From Deltaproteobacteria bacterium (lineage in GTDB: Bacteria > Myxococcota > Myxococcia > Myxococcales > Anaeromyxobacteraceae): DNA of 64,000 nucleotides. The notes under the pieces were generated by a model. It was not told the origin of the DNA, made no database searches, and worked only from the letters and a program-made list of their open reading frames with translations. Positions 5,456 through 30,570 of the stretch are shown here, one piece after another. Numbering within the stretch: the first letter of the stretch is position 1; every line of letters begins with the position of its first letter. Location: positions 1 to 64,000 of the forward strand of contig JACRMN010000029.1 of NCBI GenBank assembly GCA_016214955.1, given 5' to 3'. A program made the translations under genes and the position numbers.

Positions 5456-5556
5456 GGGGCGATGCTACCACCGCCCTCCCCGCGCGTTTCTGTCCCCGCT
5501 CGGGCGCTCGATTCCGTAGACTGGGGGCTCGGATCGCGCATCGAGGGAGGGGAACC

Positions 5557-8706: not shown

Positions 8707-8884
8707 GCGGGCGCCCGGCGCGCGACCGCCAGCATCCTCCGCACAGCCTTTCCCGTTGACGGTCCCCTCACCTTCCGGGAAGTTGCCGGCGAGGATCCCG
8801 GGTGCGAGATTCGTCGTCTCGGGCTCCACGGTCGCGACGGGGCGGGCCTCCCCGCCGTCCTGCGCACCTCTGGGAGGGGAAACC

Positions 8885-14707: not shown

Positions 14708-15595
14708 CTACTTCGTGGTGAAGAGCTGGACGCGGTTGTTCCCGCGGTCGGCCAGGAAGGCGTCGCCGCCCTCGTTGAAGCAGAGCTGCGAGGGGTAGTA
14801 GACGAAGCCGTCGTTCCAGCCCAGCGCCAGCTGCCGCCCCAGGTAGGAGCCGTCGAGCCCCAGGGTGACGATGCCCATGCCGTTCTGGTCCACGAGCAGC
14901 AGCTTGCCCTGGAACGAGGTGATGTAGGCCGGGAAGCTCATCCGGTCCTTCAGGCTGGCGCCGACCTGGGCGAAGGCCTTGCCCTCCCGCTCCACCGACC
15001 AGACCGTGGCACCCACGCCGTCCACCGCGAAGACCGTCCCGCCCACCACCGTGAGGTCGGTGAAGAGCGGCCCCTTGGGCAGCTCCACCTGGCGGCTCAC
15101 CGCTCCGGCCGCGTCGGCCACCAGCAGCTTCCCGCTGGCGGCGTCGAGGGCGTAGAGGCCGTCGCCGGCGTCGAGCTTGAAGGCCACCACCGCCGGCGCG
15201 GCCGGACCACCCTTGAGGTCCACGAACCCGGCGAAGGCACCGGCCGGGTTGATGCGGACGATCTTGTGCGACTTGCCGTCGAGGGCGAGCAGGTTGCCCT
15301 TGGAGTCGGCCTGGAGCCGGACCGGGACCGGCACCTGGGACAGCTTCACCTCACCGGTCTGGGCTGCGACGCCTCCGGGCTTCATGGCGAAGAGCAAGAT
15401 GCGCTGCTTTCCGGTGTCGGCCACGGCGAAGGAGGAGGCGGTGCAGGCCACGCCCTCGGGCGCCGCCAGCGGCACCTCCTGGGCGTCCTGGTAGACCGAC
15501 GACGACCAGGAGAGGACCAGCGCCTCCCCGCGGGCCGTCCCGGCCGCGAGCGGCAGGAGCAGCACCAGCAGCCGCAGTGCTCGGTTCGCGCTCAT
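14708..15595 (-). CDS. Secreted NHL-repeat beta-propeller protein
   Basis: 295 residues with a signal peptide (LLVLLLPLAAGTARG) followed by a six-bladed-propeller-like sequence of repeated ~45-residue blades: GVACTASSFAVADTGKQRI, NLLALDGKSHKIVRI, GLYALDAASGKLLVAD and a last blade with AFLADRGNNRVQLF. NHL propellers bind proteins or act as scaffolds; no catalytic residues stand out. It starts 4 bases after the 16-haem cytochrome stop, so it is translated from the same mRNA. A second NHL gene accompanies the OmcS homologue at 27.7 kb. It is a likely partner of the cytochromes in the periplasm or on the surface. Confidence 0.85.
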   Translation of the reverse strand: MSANRALRLLVLLLPLAAGTARGEALVLSWSSSVYQDAQEVPLAAPEGVACTASSFAVADTGKQRILLFAMKPGGVAAQTGEVKLSQVPVPVRLQADSKGNLLALDGKSHKIVRINPAGAFAGFVDLKGGPAAPAVVAFKLDAGDGLYALDAASGKLLVADAAGAVSRQVELPKGPLFTDLTVVGGTVFAVDGVGATVWSVEREGKAFAQVGASLKDRMSFPAYITSFQGKLLLVDQNGMGIVTLGLDGSYLGRQLALGWNDGFVYYPSQLCFNEGGDAFLADRGNNRVQLFTTK

Positions 15596-15599
15596 CGCC

Positions 15600-16868
15600 T
15601 CACCTCCGGAACTGCTCGTGGCACTTGGTGCAGAGCTCCGAGGTCGACGGGAACGGCATCAGCTTCTTGAACTCCGTCCCGTGGGCCCGGTGGCAGCTCA
15701 GGCACTGGATGTGCAGGTTCTTGTTGCGCGGGTCCTTGAGCTTCTCGCCCATGGGGTGGGACGAGTGCTTGAGCCAGTCGTGGCACTGGCCGCAGGACTC
15801 GACGACGTCGGGGTTCTTGAGGTTGATGGGCGCGGCCGCCGAGTGCGGGTCGTGGCAGGCGGTGCACTGGCCATCCTTCACCGGCGCGTGCTTGGTGGGC
15901 GAGATGGCCTGGCGCCGGATGGTGTCGGCGTGGCAGGAGCCGCAGACCTGGATCATGTCGCCCTTGAGGAGCCCCTTCTCCTTGGAGGCGTGGGGGCCGT
16001 GGCAGGAGAGGCAGGCGGCGCCGTCGAGCAGGGGCCGGTGGGTCCGGGCCTTCTCGCCGAACTCGTTGAGCTTCTGCGCGTGGCAGCCGCGGCACAGGGC
16101 GACGCCGGCCTGCCGGGTCCGCAGCGGCTGGGCCGAGGTGGGGGCCTCGTGGCACTGGCTGCACATCGCCTTGGCCACCGGCGGGTGCACGTTCTCGTAG
16201 AGCATGCCGCGCTTGCCCGAGCCGTGGGGGTCGTGGCAGCTGGTGCAGCGGGCCTTGGCCACCGGGTAGCCCTGGTGCTGCTTCGCGAAGATGGGCTTGT
16301 CGGTCTTGTGGCAGGCCACGCAGAGCTCGGGGACGTCGCTCTTGAGGAGCGAGGGGGCCTTGGCCGAGCCGTGCGGGTCGTGGCAGGCCACGCAGCCGCC
16401 CTGCTCGATGGGCTTGTGCTTGAACTTGGCCTTCTGGGCCTGCTCGGCGATGGGCTTGTGGCAGCCGGCGCAGAGGTCGTTGCCGCCCTTCAGCAGGTTC
16501 TTCTTGAAGGCCGAGGCGTGCGGGTCGTGGCAGCCGACGCAGCCCTTCTCGGCCACCACCTTGTGCGTGCTCCTGGCCTTGGCCGGCACCACGTCGTGGC
16601 AGGCCAGGCAGGCCTGGCTGGGCTCGGCGGAGAGCAGCTTGCCGTGGTCGGAGGCGTGCGGGTTGTGGCAGCCGGTGCAGTCCCGCGACTTCACGGGCGT
16701 GTGCACGAAGGCCTTCTTGAGGATGTCGTCGAACTGGCTGCCGTGGCAGTCGAGGCAGACCTTGCCCTCGGCGCCCGGCTTGAGCTTCAGCTTCTTGGCG
16801 TCGGCGGCGCGGGCGGGTCCGGCGGCGAGGGCCAGGGCGGTGAAGATCAGTGCGATGCGCGCGTTCAT
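15600..16868 (-). CDS. 16-haem c-type cytochrome (doubled-CxxCH type)
   Basis: 422 residues from the ATG at 16868, with a signal peptide ending near GPARA. I count 16 CxxCH motifs and no CxxxxCH. Most occur in pairs, with CHDPHG/CHNPHAS after the second motif and a KHKP/THKV segment before it. That is the doubled-CxxCH, cytochrome c3-like pattern in which the extra His residues give bis-His ligation. It is Lys-rich and soluble-looking, with no lipobox. It follows the 26-haem gene by 8 bases and is the same family in shorter form, so the pair probably arose by duplication. Likely a periplasmic electron wire. Confidence 0.9.
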   Translation of the reverse strand: MNARIALIFTALALAAGPARAADAKKLKLKPGAEGKVCLDCHGSQFDDILKKAFVHTPVKSRDCTGCHNPHASDHGKLLSAEPSQACLACHDVVPAKARSTHKVVAEKGCVGCHDPHASAFKKNLLKGGNDLCAGCHKPIAEQAQKAKFKHKPIEQGGCVACHDPHGSAKAPSLLKSDVPELCVACHKTDKPIFAKQHQGYPVAKARCTSCHDPHGSGKRGMLYENVHPPVAKAMCSQCHEAPTSAQPLRTRQAGVALCRGCHAQKLNEFGEKARTHRPLLDGAACLSCHGPHASKEKGLLKGDMIQVCGSCHADTIRRQAISPTKHAPVKDGQCTACHDPHSAAAPINLKNPDVVESCGQCHDWLKHSSHPMGEKLKDPRNKNLHIQCLSCHRAHGTEFKKLMPFPSTSELCTKCHEQFRR

Positions 16869-16876
16869 GGGTGCCC

Positions 16877-18856
16877 TCACTTCCCGCCCGTGACGTGGCA
16901 GGCGTCGCACTGCCGCCCGGCGAACGGGGCGTGCTGCGTGGCCTTGAAGAACTTGGGGTCCTTCGAGGCGTGCGGGTCGTGGCAGGCCACGCAGGAGGTG
17001 GCGGCCGGGTCGATGCCCAGGTGGGCCGCCGACCACTCCTTGCCCGACACGTCGTGGCACTGGCTGCAGAGCTCGGCCAGCGGCTGCGTGGCCAGGCGCG
17101 GCTGCGGCGCCGCGTGCGGCTTGTGGCAGGTGAGGCAATCGTCGACCGGCCGGTGCACCTTCTGGGTGGCGATCCGCTGGCCCAGCGCCTTGTGGCAGGT
17201 GAGGCAGAGGTCGGGGCTGCTGGCGAGCAGCAGGTTCTTCAGCTTGGCCTGGTGCGGGCTGTGGCACTTCACGCAGTCGCCCTTGTCGAAGGCGGCGTGC
17301 ACGCTCTTGGCGCCGGCCAGCTCCTTGGCGGTGGCCTGGTGGCACTTCAGGCAGGTGGTCTTCTGGTCGGCGACCAGGAGCCCGGCCACGTTGGAGCCGT
17401 GGGGATCGTGGCAGCCCAGACAATCGGCCTGCTGGAAGGGCTTGTGGATGGAGCCCGAGGCCGGGTCCTTGCCACCCACGTCCTTCATCATCGCGGCGTG
17501 GCAGCCCTGGCAGAGCTTGGCGCCCTGGGCCTTGAGCAGCCCCTTGCCGTCGCTGGCGTGGCCGCTGTGGCAGGCCTCGCACTGGCCGTCGAGGACCGGC
17601 TTGTGGGTGCGGGTCTTGATGAAGCGGGTCTCGGCGTCGCGGTGGCAGGCGAAGCACACCCGGTCGGAGCGGGCCTTGAGCCCGGCGGCATGGTTGGAGC
17701 CGTGGGGCGTGTGACAGGTGCTGCACTGGCCGCCGGCGAAGGGCTTGTGCTGCACCTTCTTCTTCTGCGCCGCCTCCTTGGTCTTCTGGTGGCAGCCGGC
17801 GCAGAGCTGCTCGCCGCTGGCGTCGAGGAGCCCCTTGAACTTGGCGGCGTGGGGCTTGTGGCAGGAGAGGCAGCCGGCCGCCGAATCGACCGGCTTGTGC
17901 GGCCGGCCCACCTTCTCGGCCATGGTCTTGTGGCAGCGGAAGCAGAGCTGGTTGCCGGCCGCCAGTGCCAGCTTGGCCCCGTCGGAGGCGTGCGGGTCGT
18001 GGCAGGCGGTGCAGTCGCCCTTCTGGAAGGGGAGGTGGCTCACCTTGCCGCTCACCAGGGTGTCGGGATCGTGGCAGCTGGCGCAGAGCTTCGCAGCGGT
18101 GTCGGTGAGGGCGAAGGGCTTCGCCGACTTGGCCGGCACGTGGCAGGAGTCGCAGGAGCCGGAGGCGGTGGGGCCGTGGACCGAGGCGCGCAGCAGCTTG
18201 GGCTGCTCCGAGGAGTGCGGATCGTGGCAGACGCCGCACGACCTGGTGGCCACCGGGTAGCCGCCGTGGGCCTTCTGCATCGCCGGCTTCGAGGCGTCGT
18301 GGCACTTGGCGCAGAGCTTGTCGTGCGAGGCGACCAGGAGCCCCTTCTCGGCGGCGCCGTGGGCGGAGTGGCAGGCCCCGCAGCCCTCGGTGGCCAGGAC
18401 CTTGTGGACCACCTTCTTCTCGTAGCTCTCCTTCTTGTGGCAGCCGTAGCAGGCGGCGGTGCCGGCGGCCTTGAGGAACTTGGGGTGGGCCGAGCCGTGG
18501 GCGTCGTGGCAGGCGAGGCAGCTGCCCTTCACCGCGGTGTGCACGAACTTCTTCTTCAGCCCGAGCGACTCCTCCTTGTGGCAGTCGAAGCAGAGGGCGC
18601 TGCCCATCTTCTTGAGGACCAGCTTGCCGAGGATGCCGTGGCGCAGGTGGCAGTCCTCGCACTTCTTGTCCTTCACCGCCTTGTGCTGGAACTTGGCGTC
18701 GGCGTACTTCTCGCCGAACTTCTGGTGGCAGTCGAGGCAGTCCTTGCCGCGGAAGCCGCGCTGCTGCGCCTCGGCGGCGGCCGGGAGGAGCAGCACCGCT
18801 GCCGCCAGGGCCACCGCCCACCACAGCTCGCGCCACCTTCTCGTCGTATGGGTCAC
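16877..18856 (-). CDS. 26-haem c-type cytochrome (doubled-CxxCH type)
   Basis: About 659 residues. I prefer the GTG at 18856 because GCGAGG lies 7 bases before it; the frame also allows GTG at 18862. The signal peptide ends near AAAEA. I count 26 CxxCH motifs, nearly all in ~50-residue double units with CHDPHG- or CHSPH-like second motifs and preceding HKP/HAP residues. The chain ends with CDACHVTGGK. It sits between the SurA-like PPIase and the 16-haem protein in one operon. From memory, the omcS region of Geobacter sulfurreducens also contains a very large cytochrome of this kind; a synteny search would confirm it. Probably a long periplasmic or outer-membrane electron conductor. Confidence 0.9.
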   Translation of the reverse strand: MTHTTRRWRELWWAVALAAAVLLLPAAAEAQQRGFRGKDCLDCHQKFGEKYADAKFQHKAVKDKKCEDCHLRHGILGKLVLKKMGSALCFDCHKEESLGLKKKFVHTAVKGSCLACHDAHGSAHPKFLKAAGTAACYGCHKKESYEKKVVHKVLATEGCGACHSAHGAAEKGLLVASHDKLCAKCHDASKPAMQKAHGGYPVATRSCGVCHDPHSSEQPKLLRASVHGPTASGSCDSCHVPAKSAKPFALTDTAAKLCASCHDPDTLVSGKVSHLPFQKGDCTACHDPHASDGAKLALAAGNQLCFRCHKTMAEKVGRPHKPVDSAAGCLSCHKPHAAKFKGLLDASGEQLCAGCHQKTKEAAQKKKVQHKPFAGGQCSTCHTPHGSNHAAGLKARSDRVCFACHRDAETRFIKTRTHKPVLDGQCEACHSGHASDGKGLLKAQGAKLCQGCHAAMMKDVGGKDPASGSIHKPFQQADCLGCHDPHGSNVAGLLVADQKTTCLKCHQATAKELAGAKSVHAAFDKGDCVKCHSPHQAKLKNLLLASSPDLCLTCHKALGQRIATQKVHRPVDDCLTCHKPHAAPQPRLATQPLAELCSQCHDVSGKEWSAAHLGIDPAATSCVACHDPHASKDPKFFKATQHAPFAGRQCDACHVTGGK

Positions 18857-18887
18857 GGGCACACCTCGCCGGAGCGGTCCGGCGCCG

Positions 18888-20705: not shown

Positions 20706-20735
20706 GCCATTCCTCCAGAGGTAGCCCGGCCTGCG

Positions 20736-20751
20736 TGCAACGGGTGTGCCC
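20736..20751 (-). promoter_or_regulatory. Sigma-54 promoter of the PPIase/26-haem operon
   Basis: On the minus strand GGGCACACCCGTTGCA matches TGGCAC-N5-TTGCA at all core positions except the first T. GG and GC are exactly 10 bases apart. The transcript should start about 20 bases before the GTG at 20705. Confidence 0.68.
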
Positions 20752-20760
20752 CGACGGATG

Positions 20761-20788
20761 ACGTACACGGTACGTAACTTCCTGAAGT
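20761..20788. promoter_or_regulatory. Two small palindromes next to the sigma-54 promoter
   Basis: ACGTAC-ACG-GTACGT (20761-20775) and ACTTC-CT-GAAGT (20777-20788) lie immediately upstream of the -24 element. They could bind a regulator, though activator sites for sigma-54 are usually further away, so chance is not excluded. Confidence 0.35.
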
Positions 20789-20885
20789 CATGAACGTTTC
20801 TCCGAGGTGTGGCCTGCCGTCGCGCACGGGTTGCGCTCCATACCATGGCCGGGGAGAGCTTTGCGCGGAAATCGAGACCGCCGGA

Positions 20886-22034
20886 TCAGCGCCGTGCCTT
20901 GAAGGCGCTCTCGGTGGCCGGCGTGTCCCCGGACATCCCGTCCACCACGTTGCCCACCATCGAGCAGCCCAGCGCCAGCGCGGTGCTGACCCGCCCCACG
21001 TCGAAGAAGAAGACCCAGTCGTCCCCGCGGTTGTGGGACAGCGACTGCCAGACCACCTCGCCGCTGCCGCGGTCGAGCACCGTGGCGGTGAGGTTGACGC
21101 GCGGCGGCCCCGAGTCCTCGTACTCCAGCACCTCGCCACCGAGGACCAGGTCGGCGTCGAGGACCCCGAGGAGCAGGCGCGCCGCCTCCAGCGAGACGCC
21201 GCCCTCGAGGACGATGCGCTGCTGGAGGAGCACCCGGCGCACCTGACCCGGCTCGACAGGCGTGAAGGTCCGCGAGGCGCGGAGCTGTCGCACGAAGGCC
21301 AGCGCGGCCAGCTCGCCGGCGCCGCGCCGGCGCGTCCGGTTGAGGAAGGGGACCACGGCCACCGAGTACCGCTTCTGCGGGCTCAGGGTGGTGGAGCGGT
21401 ACTGGAACACCGGCTCGAAGCGCAGGCCACGGGAGCAGGCCGGCGACGCGGGACCTTTCCGCTCGAGGTGGCGGGCCATCGAATCGGCCATGCGGGCGAA
21501 GGCCTCCGCCTCCAGCACCTTGACGTCGCTCACCAGGCCCAGGGCCAGGAGGCCGGGGGCGTCGTCGCCGGTGCGCCCGTAGCCGTCGATCCAGAGGAGC
21601 TCCGCGTCCTCGGCGGCGCGAACGAGGCGCATGGTCAGCGCGAACTGCGCCGCCGGCGAGTCGCGCCAGGTCTCGACGGAGGTCACCACCACGCCGTCCG
21701 CACCCAGCTCGTCCCGTGCGCCCGCCGCCCCCGCGCCATCCACCGAGCCGGTGGAGCGGATGCGGTGCCTGGCCAGGTACTGCTGCACGGGCTCGCCGCT
21801 CACCACCTCCAGCCCGCGCGCCGCCAGGGCCCGCTCGGCCGGCGCCAGCAGGTCGCGCACCGGCACCGGGGTCCCGCTCAGGTTCTCGAAGGGCAGGAGC
21901 ACCACGCGCCGGATGGGGCCGCGGTCCGGCAGGGGGGGCGCGGGCGGAGCGGTGGCGCAGCCGGCGGCGATCGCCAGCAGGGCGGCCAGGGCCGGGAGGC
22001 CGGGCCTACTTGAAGAGCTTGGAGATGAGGTCAT
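20886..22034 (-). CDS. Lipoprotein with two CsgG/LpoB-like domains
   Basis: 382 residues with lipobox AAGC, so a probable outer-membrane lipoprotein. Two similar alpha/beta halves are visible. The first contains RRVVLLPFENLSG and GADGVVVTSVETW; the second contains YSVAVVPFLNRTRRR and DADLVLGGEVLEYE. Both match the CsgG/LpoB/GNA1162 fold, in which VAVLPF-like strands begin the domain. CsgG forms the curli export pore, but the pore-forming hairpins of CsgG are not recognisable here. It overlaps the GNA1162-like gene by 29 bases, implying translational coupling. Position in the OmcS arm suggests a role in export or assembly of the cytochrome filament (inference). Confidence 0.72.
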   Translation of the reverse strand: MTSSPSSSSRPGLPALAALLAIAAGCATAPPAPPLPDRGPIRRVVLLPFENLSGTPVPVRDLLAPAERALAARGLEVVSGEPVQQYLARHRIRSTGSVDGAGAAGARDELGADGVVVTSVETWRDSPAAQFALTMRLVRAAEDAELLWIDGYGRTGDDAPGLLALGLVSDVKVLEAEAFARMADSMARHLERKGPASPACSRGLRFEPVFQYRSTTLSPQKRYSVAVVPFLNRTRRRGAGELAALAFVRQLRASRTFTPVEPGQVRRVLLQQRIVLEGGVSLEAARLLLGVLDADLVLGGEVLEYEDSGPPRVNLTATVLDRGSGEVVWQSLSHNRGDDWVFFFDVGRVSTALALGCSMVGNVVDGMSGDTPATESAFKARR

Positions 22035-22572
22035 CGACGGCCGTTTCCGTCACCTCGTTGAGCGGCGCGCCCCCGCCGCCCAGGAGTCGGTCCCTCCAGG
22101 TGACCCCGCCGCGGGTGGTGGTGCCGGTCCAGACGATCTTGCCGGTGGCGCACTCCTGCATGGTGAGCGAGAGCGCGATGACGTTGCCCGAGGCGTTGGC
22201 CGCCCGGACCTCGCCGTACTCCTTCACCGTGCCGGTGATGACCGCGTCCACCTTGAGGATGGTGCCGAACTTCACCACGTCCTCCACCGTGGGCGTGGCC
22301 GGGTTGAGGACGCCGGCCTTGGCCACCACCCGGATGACCTCACCCTGGGGGACGACGTAGAAGGCGCCGGAAGCCAGCATCATGCTGGTGATCACGTCGC
22401 GGACCCGCTCGCCCGCCAGGTTGTCGCGGGAGAGGTTGACGATGGGCATGACCGCCACGGTGCGGACCGAGCCGAAGTCCATGTTCTTGTCGTGGTAGTT
22501 CTGCCCGCCCGAGGCGCAGGCGGCGAGCGCGAGCAGGGCGGCCGGCAGGGTGAGGCGGATGGTTCTGGTCAT
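22006..22572 (-). CDS. GNA1162/CsgG-like outer-membrane lipoprotein
   Basis: 188 residues with lipobox LAAC (Cys19). It contains VRTVAVMPIVNLSRDNLAG, IVWTGTTTRGGVTWRDR and a C-terminal DDLISKLFK, characteristic of GNA1162/DUF799-type lipoproteins structurally related to CsgG and LpoB. It lies between the outer-membrane barrel gene (29-base gap) and the two-domain CsgG-like gene, which it overlaps. All three may form one envelope complex. The ATG at 22572 is supported by the lipoprotein signal; the longer frame to 23757 is a shadow of the barrel gene. Confidence 0.78.
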   Translation of the reverse strand: MTRTIRLTLPAALLALAACASGGQNYHDKNMDFGSVRTVAVMPIVNLSRDNLAGERVRDVITSMMLASGAFYVVPQGEVIRVVAKAGVLNPATPTVEDVVKFGTILKVDAVITGTVKEYGEVRAANASGNVIALSLTMQECATGKIVWTGTTTRGGVTWRDRLLGGGGAPLNEVTETAVDDLISKLFK

Positions 22573-22601
22573 CGGGGCGTCCTCGCTTCGGGGTTCCTCG
22601 G

Positions 22602-24842
22602 TCAGAGCAGGGAGACGTTCAGGTTGACGAACAGGATCTTGGAGACCAGCTCCTGGGCCGGTGTCCGGGACTCGTTGACGGTGTAGCCGGCGTCGAGCGT
22701 CAGGCCCTGGCGCACGTTCCAGCGGGCGCCGGGTCCCCAGACCCGGGTCCGCTGGTCGGAGGCGGTGTCGATGGTCTCGGAGTAGAGGAAGCGCAGCACC
22801 AGCTGCCCGCCGGGAAACGGGGACAGGCCCAGGTTGAAGCTGGCGACCGTGCTCGGGGTCTGCCCGCTGATGTAGCGGGTGACCGCGCCGCTGACGTTGA
22901 GGGCCGGGAAGGGGCTGAAGGAGCCCGAGCCCTCCACCGTGCTCCGGTCCTCGCGGTTGGTCCCGCCGGCGGCCAGGGTGGTCGTGCTGCGGAACCGGCT
23001 GTAGGTGCCGTTGAGCGTCAGGGTGCGGTGAGGCGAGAGGCTGGCGCCGGCCGACAGGTTGAGCCCCTCCGAGTCGTCCCCCGCCTCGTTCGTGCCCCGG
23101 GAGCCGCCCGCGGTGCTGAAGATCGAGATCCCCTGGTAGAGGTCGGCGCGCCCGAAGGCGGTGAGCGAGTGGCTGCGGGCCTCTCCGGTGGTCCGCTGGC
23201 TCCACTGGCCGCTGTAGCCGAGGCCCGCACCCAGCGTGGGGAGGGGATCGACGCTCGCCGAGGCGGCCCAGCGAACGGCCGACTCGCGGCCGCGCCCGGC
23301 GTCGGAGTCGCTCCGCTCCACCCGCGCGCCGGCGTTCACCAGGTTGCCGAGCTTGCGGGAGGCCGAGAGGCCGTTGGAGACGTTCCAGGTGGATGCCCAG
23401 GGGTGGTCGGAGTGGGTCCAGGTGAGCGCGGTGTCGTAGGCCAGGTTGAGGCTGGGCAGGAGGATGGCGCGCCCGTTGGCCGAGAGCTGCCCACCGGTGA
23501 CCGTGGGCGAGCCGCGGGCGGCCACCGCGCTCGCCGACTCGGAGAGGAAGAACTGGACCTCGGTGACCAGGATGCTGGCGTAGCGGGCGTCGGTGGTGGC
23601 CGACACCGCCAGCGGCCGCGCCGTCACCTTGAGGTAGCGCGCCGCCACCGGGGCCGGGGCGCCGATGGGGATCTCGAAGCGGGGCTGGAAGAGGCCGAAG
23701 GGGGCGGCGACGGCGCCGCCGAGCTGGGTCCAGGTCTGGTTGTCGTCGCTCTGCCACACCGTCCAGAGGATGGCCGCAGCCACGTCGGCGGGGAGCGGCT
23801 TGTTGACCCAGACGTGGACGGTGTTCACCGGGTGGAGGAGGTCCGCGAACTGGGCGCCCATGTCGCGCAGCGCGGTGTCGCCCCCCGCGCTCGGGCCGGT
23901 CCCCAGGTCGAGGCCCGCGCTCGAGGCGGTGCCCCCGTCGCCGGCGCCGATGTCACCGTCGACGAGCCGCGGGTTGGAGACCAGGCGGACGCGGCCGGGG
24001 AGGTCGATGGCGGCCTCCACGGCCGAGAGGCCGGCCACCGGCAGCACCTGCGTCAGCACCGCGCCGCCGGCTCCGGTGACGATGGTGCGGCTGGTCCGGC
24101 TGCCCAGGCTGTAGGCGGCGTAGGCGCTGATCCTGCCCTCGAGGAAGCTGTCGCTCCAGGAGGCGGAGGCGCCCTGGTTGACGTCGGTGCTCTGGATGCC
24201 GCGCAGCCGGTCGTCGGACTCGCCCCAGCGGACGCTGTAGCGCAGGTCGAGCTGGCGGGCCGGCCGGTAGGTGGTGGACACCTGGAGCTCGTCCCCCACG
24301 GTGTCGGAGAGCACGCGCGCCGCGTCGTGCTGCAGCGAGCGGTTGACGCGGACCTCCACCGTGGGGAGCTCCGCCGGCTTCCAGGCGACGTAGGCCCCGT
24401 ACCCCTCGCGCACGAGCGTGGGCGACCGGAGCGTCGTCCCCTGGAGGTGCTGCTCGCTCCCCTCCTCCCGGTGGGAGTACGAGACCCCACCCCCCAGGAC
24501 CTGGTCGCCCAGGGTGAGGCGGGTGCCGAAGCCCCAGCGCCGGGCATCGGTGTCGCTGGTGGGCGGGCCGCCTGCGCGGTTCCAGCCCAGGTTCCACTCG
24601 TACATTCCGTCGGCGTCGAGCACCAGGCGCGGGAAGAAGGCCCGGGCGAAGCCCGCGCGGGCCCGCTGCAGGAGCTGCATGCTCTCGGTGCGAGTCACCG
24701 CGCCCGACTGGTCGGTGGACCGGGAGTCCACGGTGGTGAAGGTCTCCTCGAGCCGCAAGTCGAGCCCCTCCGCGCGGGCCAGGCCACAGGCCGCGAGGGC
24801 CAGCGCCCCCGCGACCGCCCGGACTCGCAGCCCCCACGCCAC
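22602..24842 (-). CDS. Large outer-membrane beta-barrel protein candidate
   Basis: 746 residues with a GTG start 8 bases after the preceding stop and a signal peptide ending near GLARA (an LAAC lipobox is also possible). From about residue 30 the sequence alternates hydrophobic and polar residues with Tyr/Trp/Phe-rich strands and short turns: VLDADGMYEWNLGWN, RQLDLRYSVRWGESDD, LTLDAGYTVNESRTP. It ends in ILFVNLNVSLL, a barrel-like last strand. A ~100-residue region near 340-440 (ILWTVWQSDDNQTW, RYLKVTARPL) resembles a discoidin-like beta-sandwich insert. I infer a porin or export channel through which, or around which, the OmcS-arm proteins work. Confidence 0.72.
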   Translation of the reverse strand: MAWGLRVRAVAGALALAACGLARAEGLDLRLEETFTTVDSRSTDQSGAVTRTESMQLLQRARAGFARAFFPRLVLDADGMYEWNLGWNRAGGPPTSDTDARRWGFGTRLTLGDQVLGGGVSYSHREEGSEQHLQGTTLRSPTLVREGYGAYVAWKPAELPTVEVRVNRSLQHDAARVLSDTVGDELQVSTTYRPARQLDLRYSVRWGESDDRLRGIQSTDVNQGASASWSDSFLEGRISAYAAYSLGSRTSRTIVTGAGGAVLTQVLPVAGLSAVEAAIDLPGRVRLVSNPRLVDGDIGAGDGGTASSAGLDLGTGPSAGGDTALRDMGAQFADLLHPVNTVHVWVNKPLPADVAAAILWTVWQSDDNQTWTQLGGAVAAPFGLFQPRFEIPIGAPAPVAARYLKVTARPLAVSATTDARYASILVTEVQFFLSESASAVAARGSPTVTGGQLSANGRAILLPSLNLAYDTALTWTHSDHPWASTWNVSNGLSASRKLGNLVNAGARVERSDSDAGRGRESAVRWAASASVDPLPTLGAGLGYSGQWSQRTTGEARSHSLTAFGRADLYQGISIFSTAGGSRGTNEAGDDSEGLNLSAGASLSPHRTLTLNGTYSRFRSTTTLAAGGTNREDRSTVEGSGSFSPFPALNVSGAVTRYISGQTPSTVASFNLGLSPFPGGQLVLRFLYSETIDTASDQRTRVWGPGARWNVRQGLTLDAGYTVNESRTPAQELVSKILFVNLNVSLL

Positions 24843-24849
24843 CCGAGCC

Positions 24850-26247
24850 TCAGTTCCTCTCGCCGGCGAAGGCCACGGCGTGCGGGTCCGGCAGCACGTC
24901 GACCGCGGCGACCACGCGGCGCGCCGTCAGGTCCACGGCCACCAGCGAGCCCTCCTCGGGCAGCAGGGCCAGCAGCAGGTTCTCGGCGTCGTCGATGGCG
25001 AGCCAGCCGGGCACCCCCGGCAGCGCGATGGCGTCCACGGGGGTGAAGGCCAGCGGGTCGTAGATCTCCAGCCTCCGGTCGCGCCGGCCGACGTAGACCA
25101 GGTCGGTGCGAGGATCGACCTTGAGGGCGGTGGCCCCCAGCCCCACGTGCTGCCGGGCCACGGGCCTGAGATCCGGCAGCGACCAGACCCCGAGCTGGGC
25201 CGAGCCGGCGTGGATGGCGTAGAGCCGCGTCCCGGCCCGGTTGAGCGCCATGCGCGTCGGCTCGGGGTCGGTGGCGAGGGCCCCCACCACGGCGCGATTG
25301 GCGACGTCGATCACGGTGATGCGCGCCGAGCGGCGGTTGGCCACGTAGGCGCGCCGGCCGGAGCGGTCGAGGAGCAGGGCCTGCGGCTCCTCGCCCACCG
25401 GCACGCGGCCGCGCTCCATGCCCGAGGCCGGGTCCAGGAAGGCCAGGGTCCGGCTGCCGGCGTTGACCGCGAGCAGCGTGCGCCCGTCCTGCGTGAGCGC
25501 CAGGTCGCCCGGCCGGTCGCCCGGCTGCAGCCGCATGGGGGGCAGGTCCTCCCGCGAGGCGAGGTCGATGACCTGGATGGTGTCCTCGCCCGACAGGGCC
25601 ACGTAGGCCCGCCCCTGGAGGGCGTCGACGGCGATCCCCTGCGGCGCGCGGCCGGTGGGCAGCACCGCCACCACCTGGCGCCGCCGCCGGTCGAGCACCG
25701 CCACCGCCGAGGCCGCGTCGCTGGTGCAGTAGGCCGAGAGGGCGGGCTGGGGCGCGTGAGGGACCTGCGCCGCGAAGGCCGGCGCGAAGCCGTAGCTCGC
25801 CGAGACCGACGAGGAGAACCGCAGCGCCAGGGTGAGCACGGTGGCGTGGCCGCGCGACACCGGGAGCGCGACCGGCACGCGGTCCGGCTCCCGGGAGACC
25901 AGGAGGTCGGTCCGCCCGTCCTCGGTGACCAGGGTAGCGCGCCGCACCTTCACTGCCAGGGAAGTGTAGCTGCCCGGCGGCAGCCGGCCCGAGGCCAGGA
26001 GCCGCTGCCGCGAGGCCTTCGCGCCGTCCACCTCGGCGAACCCCAGGGTGAGCGGGACCTCCAGCCCGTCGGCCCGCACCGCGGCGACCCACTCCAGGGC
26101 GAAGCTGAGCCGCTCGGCCGCTGCCGGCAGCGGATCCAGGTACAGGAAGACTTCCCCTTCTCCGGCCAGCGGCGGGAGCGACCGCGCGGCCAAACCCGGG
26201 GCCTGGCAGGCGGCGAGTGCGAGCGCAGCGGCGGCGAGTGCTCTCAT
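24850..26247 (-). CDS. YVTN-type beta-propeller lipoprotein
   Basis: 465 residues with lipobox LAAC. An N-terminal DUF4382-like beta domain (residues ~20-160) is followed by about seven blades of YVTN/YncE type: APQGIAVDALQGRAYVALSG, PGDLALTQDGRTLLAVNAG, RSGRRAYVANRRSARITVID and a last blade with LVAVDLTARRVVAAVDVLPD. Such propellers bind proteins or act as surface scaffolds. It lies directly after the terminator hairpin that follows the OmcS gene, and 8 bases before the barrel gene. It probably belongs to the same envelope complex. Confidence 0.82.
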   Translation of the reverse strand: MRALAAAALALAACQAPGLAARSLPPLAGEGEVFLYLDPLPAAAERLSFALEWVAAVRADGLEVPLTLGFAEVDGAKASRQRLLASGRLPPGSYTSLAVKVRRATLVTEDGRTDLLVSREPDRVPVALPVSRGHATVLTLALRFSSSVSASYGFAPAFAAQVPHAPQPALSAYCTSDAASAVAVLDRRRRQVVAVLPTGRAPQGIAVDALQGRAYVALSGEDTIQVIDLASREDLPPMRLQPGDRPGDLALTQDGRTLLAVNAGSRTLAFLDPASGMERGRVPVGEEPQALLLDRSGRRAYVANRRSARITVIDVANRAVVGALATDPEPTRMALNRAGTRLYAIHAGSAQLGVWSLPDLRPVARQHVGLGATALKVDPRTDLVYVGRRDRRLEIYDPLAFTPVDAIALPGVPGWLAIDDAENLLLALLPEEGSLVAVDLTARRVVAAVDVLPDPHAVAFAGERN

Positions 26248-26269
26248 GCGCGTCCACCCCGGGGAGCGG

Positions 26270-26308
26270 GTGAAGGAAAAAGAAGAGGGGGCCTTGGGGG
26301 CCCCCTCT
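26270..26308 (-). terminator. Intrinsic terminator/attenuator behind the OmcS-like gene
   Basis: On the minus strand, GAGGGGGCC-CCCAA-GGCCCCCTC forms a 9-bp stem followed by TTCTTTTTCC. It lies 31 bases past the OmcS-like stop codon and before the YVTN propeller gene. It should make the NHL-OmcS message far more abundant than the downstream export genes. Confidence 0.8.
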
Positions 26309-26338
26309 CCCTACCACAACTTCTCTACAAGTGGCGCA

Positions 26339-27655
26339 CTAGTCCTTGGCGTGGCACTTGTTGCAGTAGCTGCGCGCCCACGGGCCGAACACGGTGGCCG
26401 GCCGGTAGTTGTAGGCGGCCTGCTGCTGGGCCGGGCTGTAGCCGTAGTTGATCTTGTTCTCCGTGGTGCTGGAGTCGTAGATCGCGACGTTGCCGTTGGC
26501 GGTGTCGGCCACGGTCATGAACTCGTTCAGGTAGAAGAACCGGAGCGAGCTCTCGAAGCCCGAGGCGTGGGCGCGGTGGCAGGAGATGCAGGCCACCTGG
26601 CCGTTGGTGCTGGCGGCGGGCATGGCGGTGGCGCTGGCGGCGGCGGCCTTCAGGACGGCGTAGTCGCGGTGGCCCTGCTCGAAGGGAGCGAGGGTCGAGA
26701 AGGCGGCCGAGGCGGTGACGTTGGTCATGACGCCGGTGCGGACCCAGGCGTTGTAGTTGTTGGCGATCTCGGCGGTGAGGTTGGCGCCGTTGCCCGCCGG
26801 GTGGCGGAGGCCGGCCATGCCGGAGGTGTAGCTCTGCTGCAGCATGCCGGTGTGGCAGTTGGCGCACCACTCGGACATGTCGGCGCCGTAGGCGATCGGG
26901 GTCTGGGTGGAGGCCTCGGAGCGGTTGTAGGTGCTGTTGACGACGGCGGCCGGGACGGTGCGGGTGAAGGCGTAGGAGCCGGTCAGCGACTTCGGCTGGT
27001 AGCCGATGCCGCCGAGGATGCGGTAGGCGCCCACGGCCGAGGTGCCCGCGATGGGGTCGGCGCTGCTGTTGTAGGAGCCGGAGTTCCAGATCGGCAGGCC
27101 GGCGGTGCTGATGTTGCCGGAGGCGTCACGGCGGTACTTGCCGTGCGGGTCGTGGCAGGAGGAGCAGGCCAGGGCGCTCGCCGGGTAGACGCCGCCAGGG
27201 GCGTAGGCCAGGGTGCTGTCAGCCACGTAGCCGAAGTCGGCGGCGATGACGTTGTGGCCGTGGCGCTCGCCGGGGTTGCCGTCGAGGGCGGTGTTCTTGC
27301 GGATGACGACGTTCATCGTCTTCTTCAGCCAGGCGAAGTCGCCGCCCGGGGTGGCCTCGACCGGGGAGGTCGAGTCGTAGGGGGTGATGCCGGCGGTCGA
27401 GATGTGGTAGCTCGACGGCGCCGTGTCGGCGGCCTGGTGGCAGTTGAGGCAGGCGCCCGACTGGTCGTTGGCCTTCAGGAGGTACGGGCCCGTGCCATTG
27501 GCGAAGGTCCGGCCGGTCACGTTCGGCTGGCCGTCGAACGAGTTGTGCATCGAGTGGCAGCCCTCGCACTCGGCGACGCCGCCGGAGTGGAAGGCGTAAG
27601 CGTTGCCGAAGGCGAACGCGAACAGCGCGGCGACTGCGATTCTCAGGAACTTCAT
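26339..27655 (-). CDS. omcS: OmcS-like hexahaem nanowire cytochrome
   Basis: 438 residues, matching OmcS of Geobacter sulfurreducens in length and along its whole sequence. The signal peptide ends at AYA; the mature protein begins FHSGGVAECEGCHSMHNS. There are six CxxCH motifs: CEGCH, CLNCH, CSSCH, CANCH, CISCH and CNKCH. The conserved OmcS segments YHISTA, GGDFAWLKKT, CHDPHGKYRR, GAYRILGGIGYQPKSL, MSEWCANCH, LRHPAGNG, CHRAHASGF and C-terminal CNKCHAKD are all present. Mature His16 (in SMHN), which in OmcS filaments ligates a haem of the next subunit, is conserved. The product should therefore polymerise into an extracellular electron-conducting filament. RBS GAGGGAGAAG; preceded by an NHL gene and a sigma-54 promoter, followed by a terminator. 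Confidence 0.95.
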   Translation of the reverse strand: MKFLRIAVAALFAFAFGNAYAFHSGGVAECEGCHSMHNSFDGQPNVTGRTFANGTGPYLLKANDQSGACLNCHQAADTAPSSYHISTAGITPYDSTSPVEATPGGDFAWLKKTMNVVIRKNTALDGNPGERHGHNVIAADFGYVADSTLAYAPGGVYPASALACSSCHDPHGKYRRDASGNISTAGLPIWNSGSYNSSADPIAGTSAVGAYRILGGIGYQPKSLTGSYAFTRTVPAAVVNSTYNRSEASTQTPIAYGADMSEWCANCHTGMLQQSYTSGMAGLRHPAGNGANLTAEIANNYNAWVRTGVMTNVTASAAFSTLAPFEQGHRDYAVLKAAAASATAMPAASTNGQVACISCHRAHASGFESSLRFFYLNEFMTVADTANGNVAIYDSSTTENKINYGYSPAQQQAAYNYRPATVFGPWARSYCNKCHAKD

Positions 27656-27678
27656 CTCTTCTCCCTCGCTTCGGTTGA

Positions 27679-27694
27679 CCGGCCCCTCGGCCGG
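27679..27694 (-). other. Small hairpin in the omcS-like leader
   Basis: CCGGCC-GAGG-GGCCGG forms a 6-bp stem 24 bases before the OmcS-like ATG, in the 90-base gap after the NHL gene. It could protect the abundant omcS message as a processing or stability element, or be chance in GC-rich DNA. Confidence 0.35.
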
Positions 27695-27745
27695 CTTGTT
27701 GGTGCTGCTTCCTCCAGCTCTGCGACTCCTCCGAAAACCGTGCTG

Positions 27746-28711
27746 CTAGCGGCTGCGCACTCCCGGCCCGCTCTGCGACTCCAGGGAGATCCGGTAGACG
27801 TTCACGCCGCGGCGGGCGTTCTGGGACACCCAGACCCGGCCATCGGCGGCCACCACGTCGACCGGCGCGGACAGGTTGCCGGGTCTGACGCCGCGGTAGC
27901 CGAACTCCTTCTTGAACTTGAGCGCCGGGTCGAACACCAGCACCGCCGACTTCAGGATGTCGGTGACGTAGGTGTAGCCGGCCTCGTCGCGGGCGATGCC
28001 GGCGACGATGTTGAACTTGCCGGGGGCGCTGCCCCGCTCGCCGAACTCCGTGACCTCGCCCTCGGGGGAGAGGACGAAGCCGCGGAAGAGCGGCTGGATG
28101 GTGAAGAGGATGTTGCCGTTCCTGTCGACCGAGAAGCCGCGCAGGCCCAGGTCCTCGCGCTTCTTGGCGACGTCGAGCTTCTCGGCCAGGTCGAAGCTCT
28201 TCTCGACGGCGCCGTCGAGGCCGGCGACGACCACCCGCATGCCGGGCCGGTCGGCCACGTACAGCTTGGCGCCGGCGCGGGCGATGGCGTCGGGGTGGAA
28301 GGTCTCGGCGAAGCCGGCGGGCAGGCCGGTGAGGGCCACCTTGGCGGCGGGCTCCCCGCGGAAGTTGCAGCGGACGAGCTGCACCGGGCTGCCGGCCGAG
28401 TAGGACAGGACCATCAGGTCGCCGCCCTCGAGGGCCACGGCGTCGATGGGGTGGCCGAGCTCGGCGTCGTCGCCGAAGGCGTACTCCTGCATCCCGGCCT
28501 GGTTGAAGATGCGCACCTGGCCGGCCGAGATGACCAGGACCTCCTGGTGCTCGGGATCGAACTTGAGCCGCGCCTCGGCGAGCAGCAGGACGCCGGTGAA
28601 GTCGGAGAGGCTGTGCTGGTAGGAGACGTCGAGCGCCGCGGCGTAGACGGCCAGGCCGGCGGCCACGAGGGCCACCACAACCTTTGCCAGCCTGGCGATC
28701 GCGAGACGCAT
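27746..28711 (-). CDS. NHL-repeat propeller protein preceding OmcS
   Basis: 321 residues from the ATG at 28711; a longer frame to 29116 has no signal sequence. The N-terminal hydrophobic stretch (LAKVVVALVAAGLAVYAAAL) is a signal or membrane anchor. Then come about six blades: VLVISAGQVRIFNQAGMQEY, DAIARAGAKLYVADRPGMRV, GKFNIVAGIARDEAGYTYVT and APVDVVAADGRVWVSQNARR. From memory, an NHL-repeat gene also neighbours omcS in Geobacter, so it is probably a conserved accessory of the filament, perhaps a scaffold or cap. No enzymatic residues are evident. Confidence 0.87.
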   Translation of the reverse strand: MRLAIARLAKVVVALVAAGLAVYAAALDVSYQHSLSDFTGVLLLAEARLKFDPEHQEVLVISAGQVRIFNQAGMQEYAFGDDAELGHPIDAVALEGGDLMVLSYSAGSPVQLVRCNFRGEPAAKVALTGLPAGFAETFHPDAIARAGAKLYVADRPGMRVVVAGLDGAVEKSFDLAEKLDVAKKREDLGLRGFSVDRNGNILFTIQPLFRGFVLSPEGEVTEFGERGSAPGKFNIVAGIARDEAGYTYVTDILKSAVLVFDPALKFKKEFGYRGVRPGNLSAPVDVVAADGRVWVSQNARRGVNVYRISLESQSGPGVRSR

Positions 28712-28779
28712 CCATCCACCCCAGCCCGAAGGCCCGGAAGTTTCCGCCGACGACGTGAGCGCTACGGAGGTGGGCCCTG

Positions 28780-28795
28780 TGCATGACAGGTGCCA
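28780..28795 (-). promoter_or_regulatory. Sigma-54 promoter of the NHL-OmcS operon
   Basis: On the minus strand TGGCACCTGTCATGCA has the full TGGCAC -24 box and TGCA at -12, with GG and GC exactly 10 bases apart. The transcript should start near 28769, about 58 bases before the NHL ATG. RpoN control requires an enhancer-binding activator. Confidence 0.75.
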
Positions 28796-28825
28796 GGGTT
28801 CTGGAGGGGGTTCGGCGGAGTCGGA

Positions 28826-28888
28826 TCGAGTGATCTCGAAGGATTGCGGCGTCAACTCCCCCTGATCACCTGGGGGATTACCCCCAGG
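28826..28888. promoter_or_regulatory. Palindromes placed like sigma-54 enhancer sites
   Basis: TCGAG-TGAT-CTCGA (28826-28839) and CCTGGGGG-ATTA-CCCCCAGG (28869-28888), both perfect inverted repeats, lie about 30-110 bases upstream of the -24 element. That is where an enhancer-binding protein would sit for the OmcS promoter. They are also upstream of the opposite promoter, so one regulator could serve both arms. Confidence 0.5.
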
Positions 28889-29129
28889 GGTGCGGGGCCA
28901 CTCGCGCCCGCTGTCCACCCGAAAATGGCGGTTTTGTGCGCAGAGCCTGCGCTCATGAAGGTGTGCGCGCACGGGTTGCTGGACCGCCACCACAGGCAAT
29001 TTCGGGCGCCGTTCACTCCTCGTCCGAACGCGATCTGCTGCTCCTCCCTGAAGTCGCGGGGATGGGAGATCGGGTTCCAGCACCCACCCCTGCACACCCC
29101 GTCCGGACTGCGGCAAGACTCACGTTCGC

Positions 29130-29145
29130 TGGGGCATAGCGCGCA
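29130..29145 (+). promoter_or_regulatory. Weak sigma-54 candidate for the second OmcS-like gene
   Basis: TGGGGCATAGCGCGCA keeps GG (29131-29132) and GC (29143-29144) 10 bases apart and a flanking T and A, but departs from TGGCAC and TTGC. It is 111 bases before the preferred ATG. Confidence 0.35.
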
Positions 29146-29256
29146 GTGTGGGAGTACGGCGGAGGTCCGCTGGGCCTGTCGCACCGGTCCCGTTTGATCG
29201 CGACATGGGGGCATATGGGTTGCAGCCCGCCCCGCTTCGTGCGAGTGGTGCTCGCC

Positions 29257-30570
29257 ATGCGCAGAGCAGCCGGGAGGTGCCTGCCGCCGCTCGCGGCGGT
29301 GGCGCTGTGCCTCGCCGCCTCTCCGGCCCTCGCCTTCCACGGCGGCGGCGCCGGTGAGTGCGACGGCTGCCACTCGATGCACGACTCGAACGACGGAGTG
29401 TCGGGCCCCGGGCCGCGCGGCGGGTACCTGCTGAAGGCCAGCGACCCGAGCTCGGTCTGCCTCAACTGCCACCAGGCCCAGGGCGACATCGGCCCGGTCG
29501 GCTACCACATCTCCACCGCCGAGGCCGACATGCCGCCGGGCCTCCCTCCGCGGCAGATGGCGCCCGGCGGCGACTTCGGCTGGCTGAAGAAGACCTTCCA
29601 GTGGACCACGCGCCCGGGCACCCCGCTGCAGACCAGCCCTGGCGAGCGGCATGGCCACAGCATCGTCGCCCTCGACTACGGCTACTCCTCCGACTCCCGC
29701 AGCTTCACCGCACCGGGGGGCACGTACCCCTCGGCCAACCTTTCCTGCGTGAGCTGCCACGACCCCCACGGCAAGTACCGGCGCTTCGCCGACGGCTCCG
29801 TCGGGACGAGCGGGCTCACCGTGCTGGGGAGCGGCTCGCAGGCGAGCGGCACCGATCCGGTGGCCGGGGTCGGGGCGGCCGGCGTCTACCGGATGCTGGG
29901 CGGCGTGGGCTACCAGCCCAGGTCGCTGTCCGGCGCGCTCGCCTTCCAGAACCCGCCGCCGGCGGCCGTCGCCCCCAACACCTACAACCGGCGGGAGACC
30001 ACCACCCAGACGCGGGTTGCCTACGGCCGCGACATGTCCGAGTGGTGCGCCAACTGCCACCCGCGCCTCCTGGTCTCGGGCGTGACGGAGCAGATGTCCG
30101 GCCTGCGCCACCCGGCCGGCAACGGCGCCATCCTGGGCGCCACCATGTCGCGCAACTACGCCTCCTACCTGCGCACCGGCAAGCTGACGGGGTTCGCCAG
30201 CCAGTCCTACCTGTCGCTCGTGCCCTTCGAGGAGGGGCACGCCGACTACACGCGCCTCAAGGCCCACGCCCGCAGCGACGACCTCTACCTGCAGGGGCCC
30301 GACGACGTCTCCACCGTGATGTGCCTGACCTGCCACCGGGCCCACGCCTCCGGCTTCGACGGCGCCCTCCGCTTCCGGGCCCGCGGCGCCGAGTTCATCA
30401 CCGTGGGTGACACCGTCAGCGGCGCGCGCTACCCCGACCCGCTGGCCGAGCCGGCCGTCGCCGAGGGCCGCACCCAGGCCGAGACGCGGGCCTCCTACTA
30501 CGACCGCCCGGCGACGGTCTTCTCGCCCTTCCAGCGCTCCCTCTGCAACAAGTGCCACGTGAAGGACTGA
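29257..30570 (+). CDS. Second OmcS-like hexahaem cytochrome (OmcT-like paralogue)
   Basis: 437 residues from the ATG at 29257, almost the same length as the first OmcS homologue. The signal peptide ends at SPALA; the mature start is FHGGGAGECDGCHSMHDS. Six CxxCH motifs: CDGCH, CLNCH, CVSCH, CANCH, CLTCH, CNKCH. YHISTAEADMPPG, GGDFGWLKKTF, CHDPHGKYRRF, MSEWCANCH, LRHPAGNGA, VPFEEGHADYT and CNKCHVKD match OmcS; some stretches look closer to Geobacter OmcS than those of the neighbour do. His16 for the inter-subunit haem is kept. No clear RBS precedes this ATG; a start at 29215 is possible. Transcribed away from the first copy, and its 3' end overlaps a GT-C gene by 19 bases. Confidence 0.93.
   Translation: MRRAAGRCLPPLAAVALCLAASPALAFHGGGAGECDGCHSMHDSNDGVSGPGPRGGYLLKASDPSSVCLNCHQAQGDIGPVGYHISTAEADMPPGLPPRQMAPGGDFGWLKKTFQWTTRPGTPLQTSPGERHGHSIVALDYGYSSDSRSFTAPGGTYPSANLSCVSCHDPHGKYRRFADGSVGTSGLTVLGSGSQASGTDPVAGVGAAGVYRMLGGVGYQPRSLSGALAFQNPPPAAVAPNTYNRRETTTQTRVAYGRDMSEWCANCHPRLLVSGVTEQMSGLRHPAGNGAILGATMSRNYASYLRTGKLTGFASQSYLSLVPFEEGHADYTRLKAHARSDDLYLQGPDDVSTVMCLTCHRAHASGFDGALRFRARGAEFITVGDTVSGARYPDPLAEPAVAEGRTQAETRASYYDRPATVFSPFQRSLCNKCHVKD

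Follow-up and report, generated by a model that had tools for sequence, protein, structure and literature searches.

Few biological conductors are as well known as the OmcS wires. In Geobacter sulfurreducens the wire gene belongs to the osc (omcS-companion) cluster, GSU2504-GSU2494, in which experiments led to proposed roles for OscH in folding, OscEFG in secretion and OscD in morphology (Shen et al. 2025, Cell Chem Biol 32:239, as cited in PMC13194489). OmcS is not always needed in Geobacter for current or for growth on Fe(III) oxide (PMC13194489), so its physiological role may be minor. Homologues of OmcS in Anaeromyxobacter have been reported previously (PMC10954620), and the PCC3 system of Gallionellaceae contains a periplasmic cytochrome of 21-27 haems (PMC10734462).

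The locus described here, found within a window of 64,000 nucleotides (the whole stretch of DNA that was analysed), is very probably a complete osc cluster in a member of the Anaeromyxobacteraceae, combining an OmcS-type wire gene with a dedicated assembly and export machine. The cluster's gene set and order (OmcS, D, E, F, G, H, I, J) are present, in an operon that reads A-S-D-E-F-G-H-I-J-K on the minus strand at window positions 14708-28711 (Table 1). Osc names were assigned from gene order and the published cluster as presented in PMC13194489, with homology shown against loci of Geomonas, Citrifermentans and Pelobacter. The sequence-only reading of this DNA had described two OmcS-type hexahaem proteins amid accessory genes in a very GC-rich, apparently non-Geobacter genome, and its gene content was confirmed by phmmer, Pfam/NCBIfam and AlphaFold2; the genome belongs to the Anaeromyxobacteraceae. 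The NHL and YVTN propellers, the PPIase and the GNA1162/CsgG-like lipoproteins that it named were recovered by Pfam/NCBIfam, and its 26- and 16-haem cytochromes are both real, each having a signal peptide and Paired_CXXCH matches. The 16-haem gene was at first suspected of being an out-of-frame shadow, because a long frame (15600-18836) runs into the 26-haem gene; the coding sequence itself, 15600-16868, is genuine. Two boundaries of the earlier annotation were corrected (the upstream limit of the operon, now the start of the NHL gene at about 28711, and the end of OscF), and the start of OmcS2 is most likely the ATG at 29257 rather than a GTG at 29146.

Table 1. Features of the osc locus, in window coordinates.
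Feature	Position	Strand	Basis
OscA-like NHL-type beta-propeller, signal peptide, most upstream operon gene	27746..28711	-	NHL-type match 4.7e-11
OmcS1, hexahaem filament-type cytochrome, OmcS clade	26339..27655	-	homology, histidines, tree
Terminator-like hairpin between OmcS1 and OscD	26280..26312	-	14 bp stem, loop 5, T-rich tail
OscD-like YVTN/YNCE beta-propeller lipoprotein, lipobox LAAC	24850..26247	-	Pfam/NCBIfam
OscE-like large outer-membrane beta-barrel (predicted), beta-rich insert at about residues 260-420	22602..24842	-	AlphaFold2, Foldseek
OscF-like lipoprotein, single PelC/GNA1162/LpoB-type domain (predicted)	22006..22572	-	PF05643 1e-8; PelC 9h80 E 5e-5
OscG-like lipoprotein, two tandem PelC/CsgG-type domains (predicted)	20886..22034	-	AlphaFold2, Foldseek
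OscH-like periplasmic PPIC/SurA-type prolyl isomerase, 605 aa	18888..20705	-	PF13145 1.6e-25; profile A4
OscI-like 26-haem periplasmic cytochrome	16877..18862	-	Paired_CXXCH 2e-141, signal peptide
OscJ-like 16-haem periplasmic cytochrome	15600..16868	-	Paired_CXXCH 1e-87, signal peptide
OscK-position NHL beta-propeller, last operon gene	14708..15595	-	PF01436 3.4e-8
OmcS2, divergent hexahaem OmcS homologue	29257..30570	+	homology, histidines, tree

The operon order is conserved across Anaeromyxobacteraceae, Geobacteraceae, Nitrospirota, Acidobacteriota, Desulfobulbales and others, with OscA preceding the S gene in most loci and OscK following J wherever the flank is long enough. Long flanks were available for 51 omcS loci, and 38 of these have at least three of the D-H genes nearby; among the 17 sampled genomes having no D-H companions in the flank examined, a strong OscE match was located elsewhere in 11 (12 if one incomplete frame from a complete chromosome is counted), and the rest are draft MAGs. 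Across 195 Myxococcota genomes, omcS and OscE occur together in 16, either one alone in 2 and 2, and neither in 175 (Fisher p 2e-19, kinship ignored). The genus has two further genomes (81-87% complete), and both lack omcS and OscE, so the trait is not shared by all its members. The synteny with Geobacter that the sequence-only reading had supposed is real for Geobacteraceae, and the co-conservation of neighbours with omcS on which it had made its claim depend appears as a fixed order across phyla. Its expectation of novelty, namely that the locus would define which genes travel with the filament, does not hold, since the osc cluster had settled this for G. sulfurreducens (PMC13194489, citing Shen et al. 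2025).

OmcS1 and OmcS2 are proteins of 437-438 aa with six CxxCH motifs apiece, and a genome-wide search returned them as the only full-length OmcS homologues. A phmmer search against the PDB matched both to a single family, OmcS (6EF8/6NEF), over the entire mature chain (E 1.5e-136 for OmcS1 and 5.7e-145 for OmcS2), so that the refuting outcome named beforehand, a failure of both to align end to end with OmcS, did not occur. Identity to 6EF8 is 58-59% (59% for OmcS2), and both proteins retain 13 of 13 shared histidines (2, 13, 16, 51, 63, 110, 144, 147, 243, 257, 332, 335 and 404), including His16 at the position of the inter-subunit haem ligand. From their sequences both belong to the OmcS family, and OmcS1 is predicted to form filaments.

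The wire protein and the machine have different family histories, the history of OmcS1 being incongruent with that of the surrounding operon in both directions (AU p about 1e-5). OscA groups with Anaeromyxobacteraceae, a Geobacteraceae grouping being rejected (p 0.006), and the machine belongs to the Anaeromyxobacteraceae lineage. In the free tree OmcS1 is nested among Geobacteraceae OmcS (96/95, 91/84), to which it is 66% identical vs 44-48% for most Anaeromyxobacter copies. A simple transfer of the wire gene from Geobacter was not retained: the free tree shows the nesting, but the AU test does not reject a clade that joins OmcS1 to the copies of its own family and of Archangiaceae (p 0.25), nor Geobacteraceae OmcS grouped without the window copy (p 0.22), and the claim is therefore limited to incongruence with the machine. 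Whether the incongruence instead reflects old paralogues sorted differently, several S genes having been present per operon and different ones kept, is evenly balanced; operons with two or three S genes do exist (L029, L032, L025) and both AU results accommodate such sorting, while the free-tree nesting and the identity values speak against it.

The role of OmcS2 is similarly contested. It groups with Nitrospirota copies (one D-adjacent, others unlinked), apart from OmcS (97/93), lies outside the operon and has no terminator-like hairpin downstream, all of which would suit a protein that caps the wire, forms its base or stays in the periplasm (possibly the case for Geobacter OscC), or else an alternative wire under regulation. 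This possibility falls a little short of an even chance against a second wire subunit, since OmcS2 keeps full length, all axial histidines and 59% identity to OmcS, and is not grouped with the Geobacteraceae copy adjoining OscD.

The hairpin between OmcS1 and OscD (folding z -2.7) belongs to a pattern that recurs behind many wire genes and is almost absent from other gene ends: a terminator-like hairpin follows 34 of 119 S genes, compared with 1 of 209 other osc gene ends and 3 of 524 random stretches. By attenuation, it may end most transcripts 3' of omcS1, in which case the wire would be more abundant than the machine. A riboswitch was considered and dropped, Rfam searches of the window (E up to 1) and of seven loci from the family having returned none. 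One near-consensus sigma-54 type site upstream of OscA was discounted, the window-wide count being at chance level, and no sigma-70 promoters were found. Elsewhere, one Desulfuromonadaceae locus (L021) has a c-di-GMP-I-GGC riboswitch where omcS begins.

OscE, which the sequence-only reading had listed as a candidate barrel, is modelled confidently by AlphaFold2 as an all-beta barrel (pLDDT 88, approximately 28-29 long strands). It has no sequence-family match in Pfam, and its best Foldseek match is MtrB of the Mtr complex, followed by TonB receptors and usher pores, none of them close; a second structural comparison also listed no close solved barrel. OscF and OscG are predicted to be PelC-type lipoproteins: the OscG model matches PelC (2e-8), GNA1162 (4e-6) and CsgG (2e-4) in Foldseek, its two halves match one another (E 0.001), and OscF matches PelC. 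Of the large cytochromes, OscI carries 26 haems in 25 of 25 and OscJ 16 in 12 of 12 complete copies, and in other phyla the two occur fused as one 42-haem protein whose haem motifs align one to one. Combined, these features suggest a pathway in which OmcS1 would be exported by Sec, receive haem c in the periplasm, be kept and folded by OscH, the PPIase, and then pass a ring or stack of PelC-like OscF and OscG, comparable to that of PelBC, into the OscE barrel. Outside the cell the subunits would polymerise, the conserved His16 ligating a haem of the next subunit; OscI and OscJ would form one 42-haem chain spanning the periplasm and bringing electrons to the outer-membrane site and the filament base, and propellers A, D and K would be accessory.

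It is rather unlikely that the locus is mainly a porin-cytochrome conduit of the MtrCAB/OetABI type, with OscE holding OscI/OscJ as the 26-strand MtrB barrel holds MtrA, OmcS as terminal reductase or short extension and no dedicated assembly machine: the MtrB match, the matches of OscI and OscJ to the DmsE/MtrA-type decahaem family (6e-81 and 2e-52), the conserved 26/16/42-haem counts and the proposal of OetABI for omcS-bearing loci of sulfate reducers (PMC10553843) are consistent with it, but the resemblance to MtrB goes no further than the barrel class (6% identity, rmsd 17, with similar scores for TonB receptors), and MtrCAB has neither a PPIase nor PelC-type lipoproteins, the components on which folding and secretion of OmcS reportedly depend in Geobacter (PMC13194489, citing Shen et al. 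2025). The conduit and assembly-machine readings are not exclusive of one another.

For the assembly machine, a modular organisation is put forward tentatively, in which the osc operon was inherited vertically except for an exchange of its wire gene, the machine accepts wires of distant relatives, and a fixed 42-haem feeder (OscI and OscJ, split or fused) is docked at a PelBC-type OscE-OscF-OscG portal. If true, the feeder and portal would connect the filament straight to the periplasm. The locus provides a Myxococcota example of simpler layout, with one S gene in the operon and one divergent, and the cross-phylum comparison yields testable points: which S genes the machine accepts, OscI and OscJ as a fixed-length chain, a PelC-like OscF/OscG ring, and a hairpin setting the wire-to-machine ratio. 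While the osc gene set itself is already known from Geobacter, the incongruent OmcS1 history, the wire-gene hairpin, the fixed 26/16 haems with their 42-haem fusion and the PelC-like OscF/OscG were not found in the published literature covered, in which Shen et al. 2025 was represented by its citation in PMC13194489.

Compared with the G. sulfurreducens osc cluster, the locus has OmcS, propeller, channel-like trio, PPIase and the pair of large periplasmic cytochromes arranged identically, with five genes between the D-adjacent S gene and the 26-haem gene in both; it differs in that a single S gene takes the place of omcS-omcT-oscC in the operon, the second OmcS is divergent, the machine is of the Anaeromyxobacteraceae lineage and no Rfam riboswitch was found. 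With the OmcS filament (PDB 6EF8/6NEF) it shares full-chain homology, six CxxCH motifs and all shared histidines including His16, the proteins here bearing short insertions, with polymerisation a prediction. The PelBC exporter, in which twelve PelC lipoproteins form a ring on the PelB barrel (PMC12141448), has the same combination of barrel and PelC-type lipoproteins, whereas OscE has no match to PelB, OscG is two-domain, the cargo would be a cytochrome and the ring is presumed. A barrel and long periplasmic cytochromes of doubled CxxCH motifs are common to MtrCAB, OetABI and the PCC3 of Gallionellaceae; here they come with 26 and 16 haems, a PPIase, candidate ring lipoproteins and a predicted polymer outside. 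The Uet complex (PPIase UetB, NHL proteins UetHI, cytochromes; PMC10734462) also places a PPIase and NHL proteins beside extracellular cytochromes, which unlike those here are tetrahaem and undecahaem, without OmcS.

The sequence-only reading had proposed a complete OmcS nanowire locus with two OmcS paralogues, and its gene list is borne out by all of the minus-strand genes and the divergent OmcS2 in the table; the locus is real and was read correctly, and as a kind it is ordinary. Gaps of 4-180 bases and one 29-base overlap give the minus-strand genes operon-like spacing. The source genome (5.3 Mb) is a member of Anaeromyxobacteraceae, in a genus distinct from that of the Anaeromyxobacter genomes compared; Anaeromyxobacter oryzae Red232 (L043), of the same family, also carries OmcS.

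Genes of the osc-type locus in the window
Feature	Coordinates	Strand	Remark
NHL propeller (OscA)	28711-27746	-	first in transcription order
OmcS1	27655-26339	-	second in transcription order
YVTN propeller lipoprotein (OscD)	26247-24850	-	
Barrel (OscE)	24842-22602	-	
GNA1162/PelC-like lipoprotein (OscF)	22572-22006	-	
Double-domain lipoprotein (OscG)	22034-20886	-	
PPIase (OscH)	20705-18888	-	
26-haem cytochrome (OscI)	18862-16877	-	
16-haem cytochrome (OscJ)	16868-15600	-	
NHL propeller (OscK position)	15595-14708	-	
OmcS2	29257-30570	+	divergent

In a PDB search, OmcS1 and OmcS2 both matched OmcS alone, end to end across the full mature chain, with identities to OmcS of 58% and 59% and to each other of 52% in a three-way alignment. 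Thirteen histidines are common to all three proteins (OmcS positions 2, 13, 16, 51, 63, 110, 144, 147, 243, 257, 332, 335 and 404), including His16, the inter-subunit ligand in the published structure. Within the OmcS filament, a haem is ligated by a distal histidine of the neighbouring subunit (PMC12307469).

We searched 75 omcS loci from named genomes, plus nine more family loci, with profiles of the ten window gene families. The order A-S-D-E-F-G-H-I-J-K (S being the omcS-type gene, present in one to three copies per locus) was found again in Desulfuromonadaceae, Nitrospirota, Acidobacteriota, Desulfobulbales, Desulfobacterales, Anaeromyxobacteraceae and Geobacteraceae, the last as the earlier reading had supposed. 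The supposed co-conservation of the neighbours with omcS also held, at least three of D-H adjoining omcS in 38 of the 51 long-flanked loci. Seventeen genomes were sampled at an omcS locus lacking D-H companions in the stretch covered, which in some stops at a contig end; in 11 of these a strong OscE match, full or nearly full in length, lies elsewhere, one more, on a complete chromosome, has no more than the C-terminal part of OscE, and the remaining ones are draft MAGs. Of the 195 Myxococcota genomes, 16 carry both omcS and OscE, 2 and 2 carry one of them alone, and 175 carry neither; the count takes no account of kinship, but G085, G135 and G214 belong to other families. The complete 2.3-Mb deltaproteobacterial chromosome CP070783.1 has two omcS genes (L058, L074) and elsewhere only a C-terminal OscE fragment; no strong OscH match was found on it, and it possibly represents a decaying osc system.

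The wire gene and its surrounding machine differ in history. In the OscD-OscI tree, the window pairs with genome G005 inside an Anaeromyxobacteraceae clade (100), with Acidobacteriota adjacent, whereas in the OmcS tree OmcS1 is positioned among Geobacteraceae OmcS. Grouping the window with Geobacteraceae loci was rejected for OscD-OscI (AU p 9e-6) and for OscA, the other flank of OmcS1, which tracks the machine (p 0.006), as was holding together the operon S copies of Anaeromyxobacteraceae, which spread across several OmcS clades (p 1.5e-5); these p values are somewhat optimistic because the groups were named once identities had been seen. Since OscD-OscI and OscA agree and OmcS1 departs, the wire gene alone is unlike both its neighbours. 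Transfer and sorting of old paralogues were not separated by the tests (p 0.22-0.25). OmcS2 clusters with Nitrospirota copies (97/93).

In the OscE model (pLDDT 88, pTM 0.61), about 28-29 long strands form an all-beta barrel that carries a beta-rich insert; structural matches to the model are barrels as a class, with MtrB at the top and none close. The insert (approximately residues 260-420; SDDNQTW...ARYLKVTARPL...VTEVQFF) reads by eye like a discoidin-type jelly roll. OscF has one PelC/GNA1162/LpoB/CsgG-type domain, with PelC as the best PDB match, and OscG has two copies of weak mutual sequence likeness. In PelBC, twelve PelC form a ring atop the PelB barrel (PMC12141448); OscE, OscF and OscG may form a portal of similar build.

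Haem counts were constant, with 26 CxxCH motifs in 25/25 complete unfused OscI copies and 16 in 12/12 complete OscJ copies (one 10-haem copy, cut at the locus end, was left out). A single protein with 42 (once 41) motifs, pairing one to one with OscI then OscJ, occurs in Gemmatimonadota, a Fibrobacter MAG and one further bacterial MAG; a Latescibacterota copy is cut by the contig end. The fusion and the constant counts favour one chain of fixed length. MtrA has ten haems over about 8 nm, and by estimate a 42-haem chain would span about 30 nm, close to the periplasm width. The variant cluster in these taxa (L082, L085, L087, L088, L089) comprises OscE, OscF, a divergent OscG-like gene (hhalign probability 80% in L085), OscH and the fusion, together with A and S; neither D nor K was found in it.

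The stretch separating omcS1 from oscD contains a strong terminator-like hairpin (z -2.7), which is absent after the OmcS2 gene. Such hairpins, with stems unlike in sequence between loci, follow 34/119 S genes, as against 1/209 D-I gene ends of the same operons and 3/524 random stretches; the likeliest use is to yield more wire subunits than machine components. A c-di-GMP-I-GGC riboswitch stands at the omcS start in a Pelobacter MAG (L021, 3210-3294, +), but none was found in the window or in seven family loci. A near-consensus -24/-12 site, TGGCACCTGTCATGCA (28780-28795, -), precedes OscA by about 70 bases, sites of this kind being at chance level window-wide.

Two more large cytochromes, of the Geobacter CxxxxCH..CxxCH type, lie close to the cluster (5302-7698, +, 17 CxxCH; 8528-11038, +, 16 CxxCH). 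A 1366-aa multihaem frame (57226-61326, -) has 31 CxxCH, or up to 41 with wider spacings, and contains a 486-bp tandem repeat (57871-60559; 5.5 copies, 88% match); the cytochrome appears to have lengthened through copies of a 162-aa unit.

Several comparative points from this locus make the question of wire assembly more testable. As summarised in PMC13194489, the Geobacter osc operon of Shen et al. 2025 includes omcS (GSU2504), omcT (GSU2503), oscC (GSU2501), oscI (GSU2495) and oscJ (GSU2494), with roles in morphology for OscD, secretion for OscE-F-G and folding for OscH; gene number and order in the window are consistent with this. Because this operon, Anaeromyxobacter OmcS homologues (PMC10954620) and conduits with omcS in sulfate reducers (PMC10553843) are already published, the window locus is a further example of a known system.
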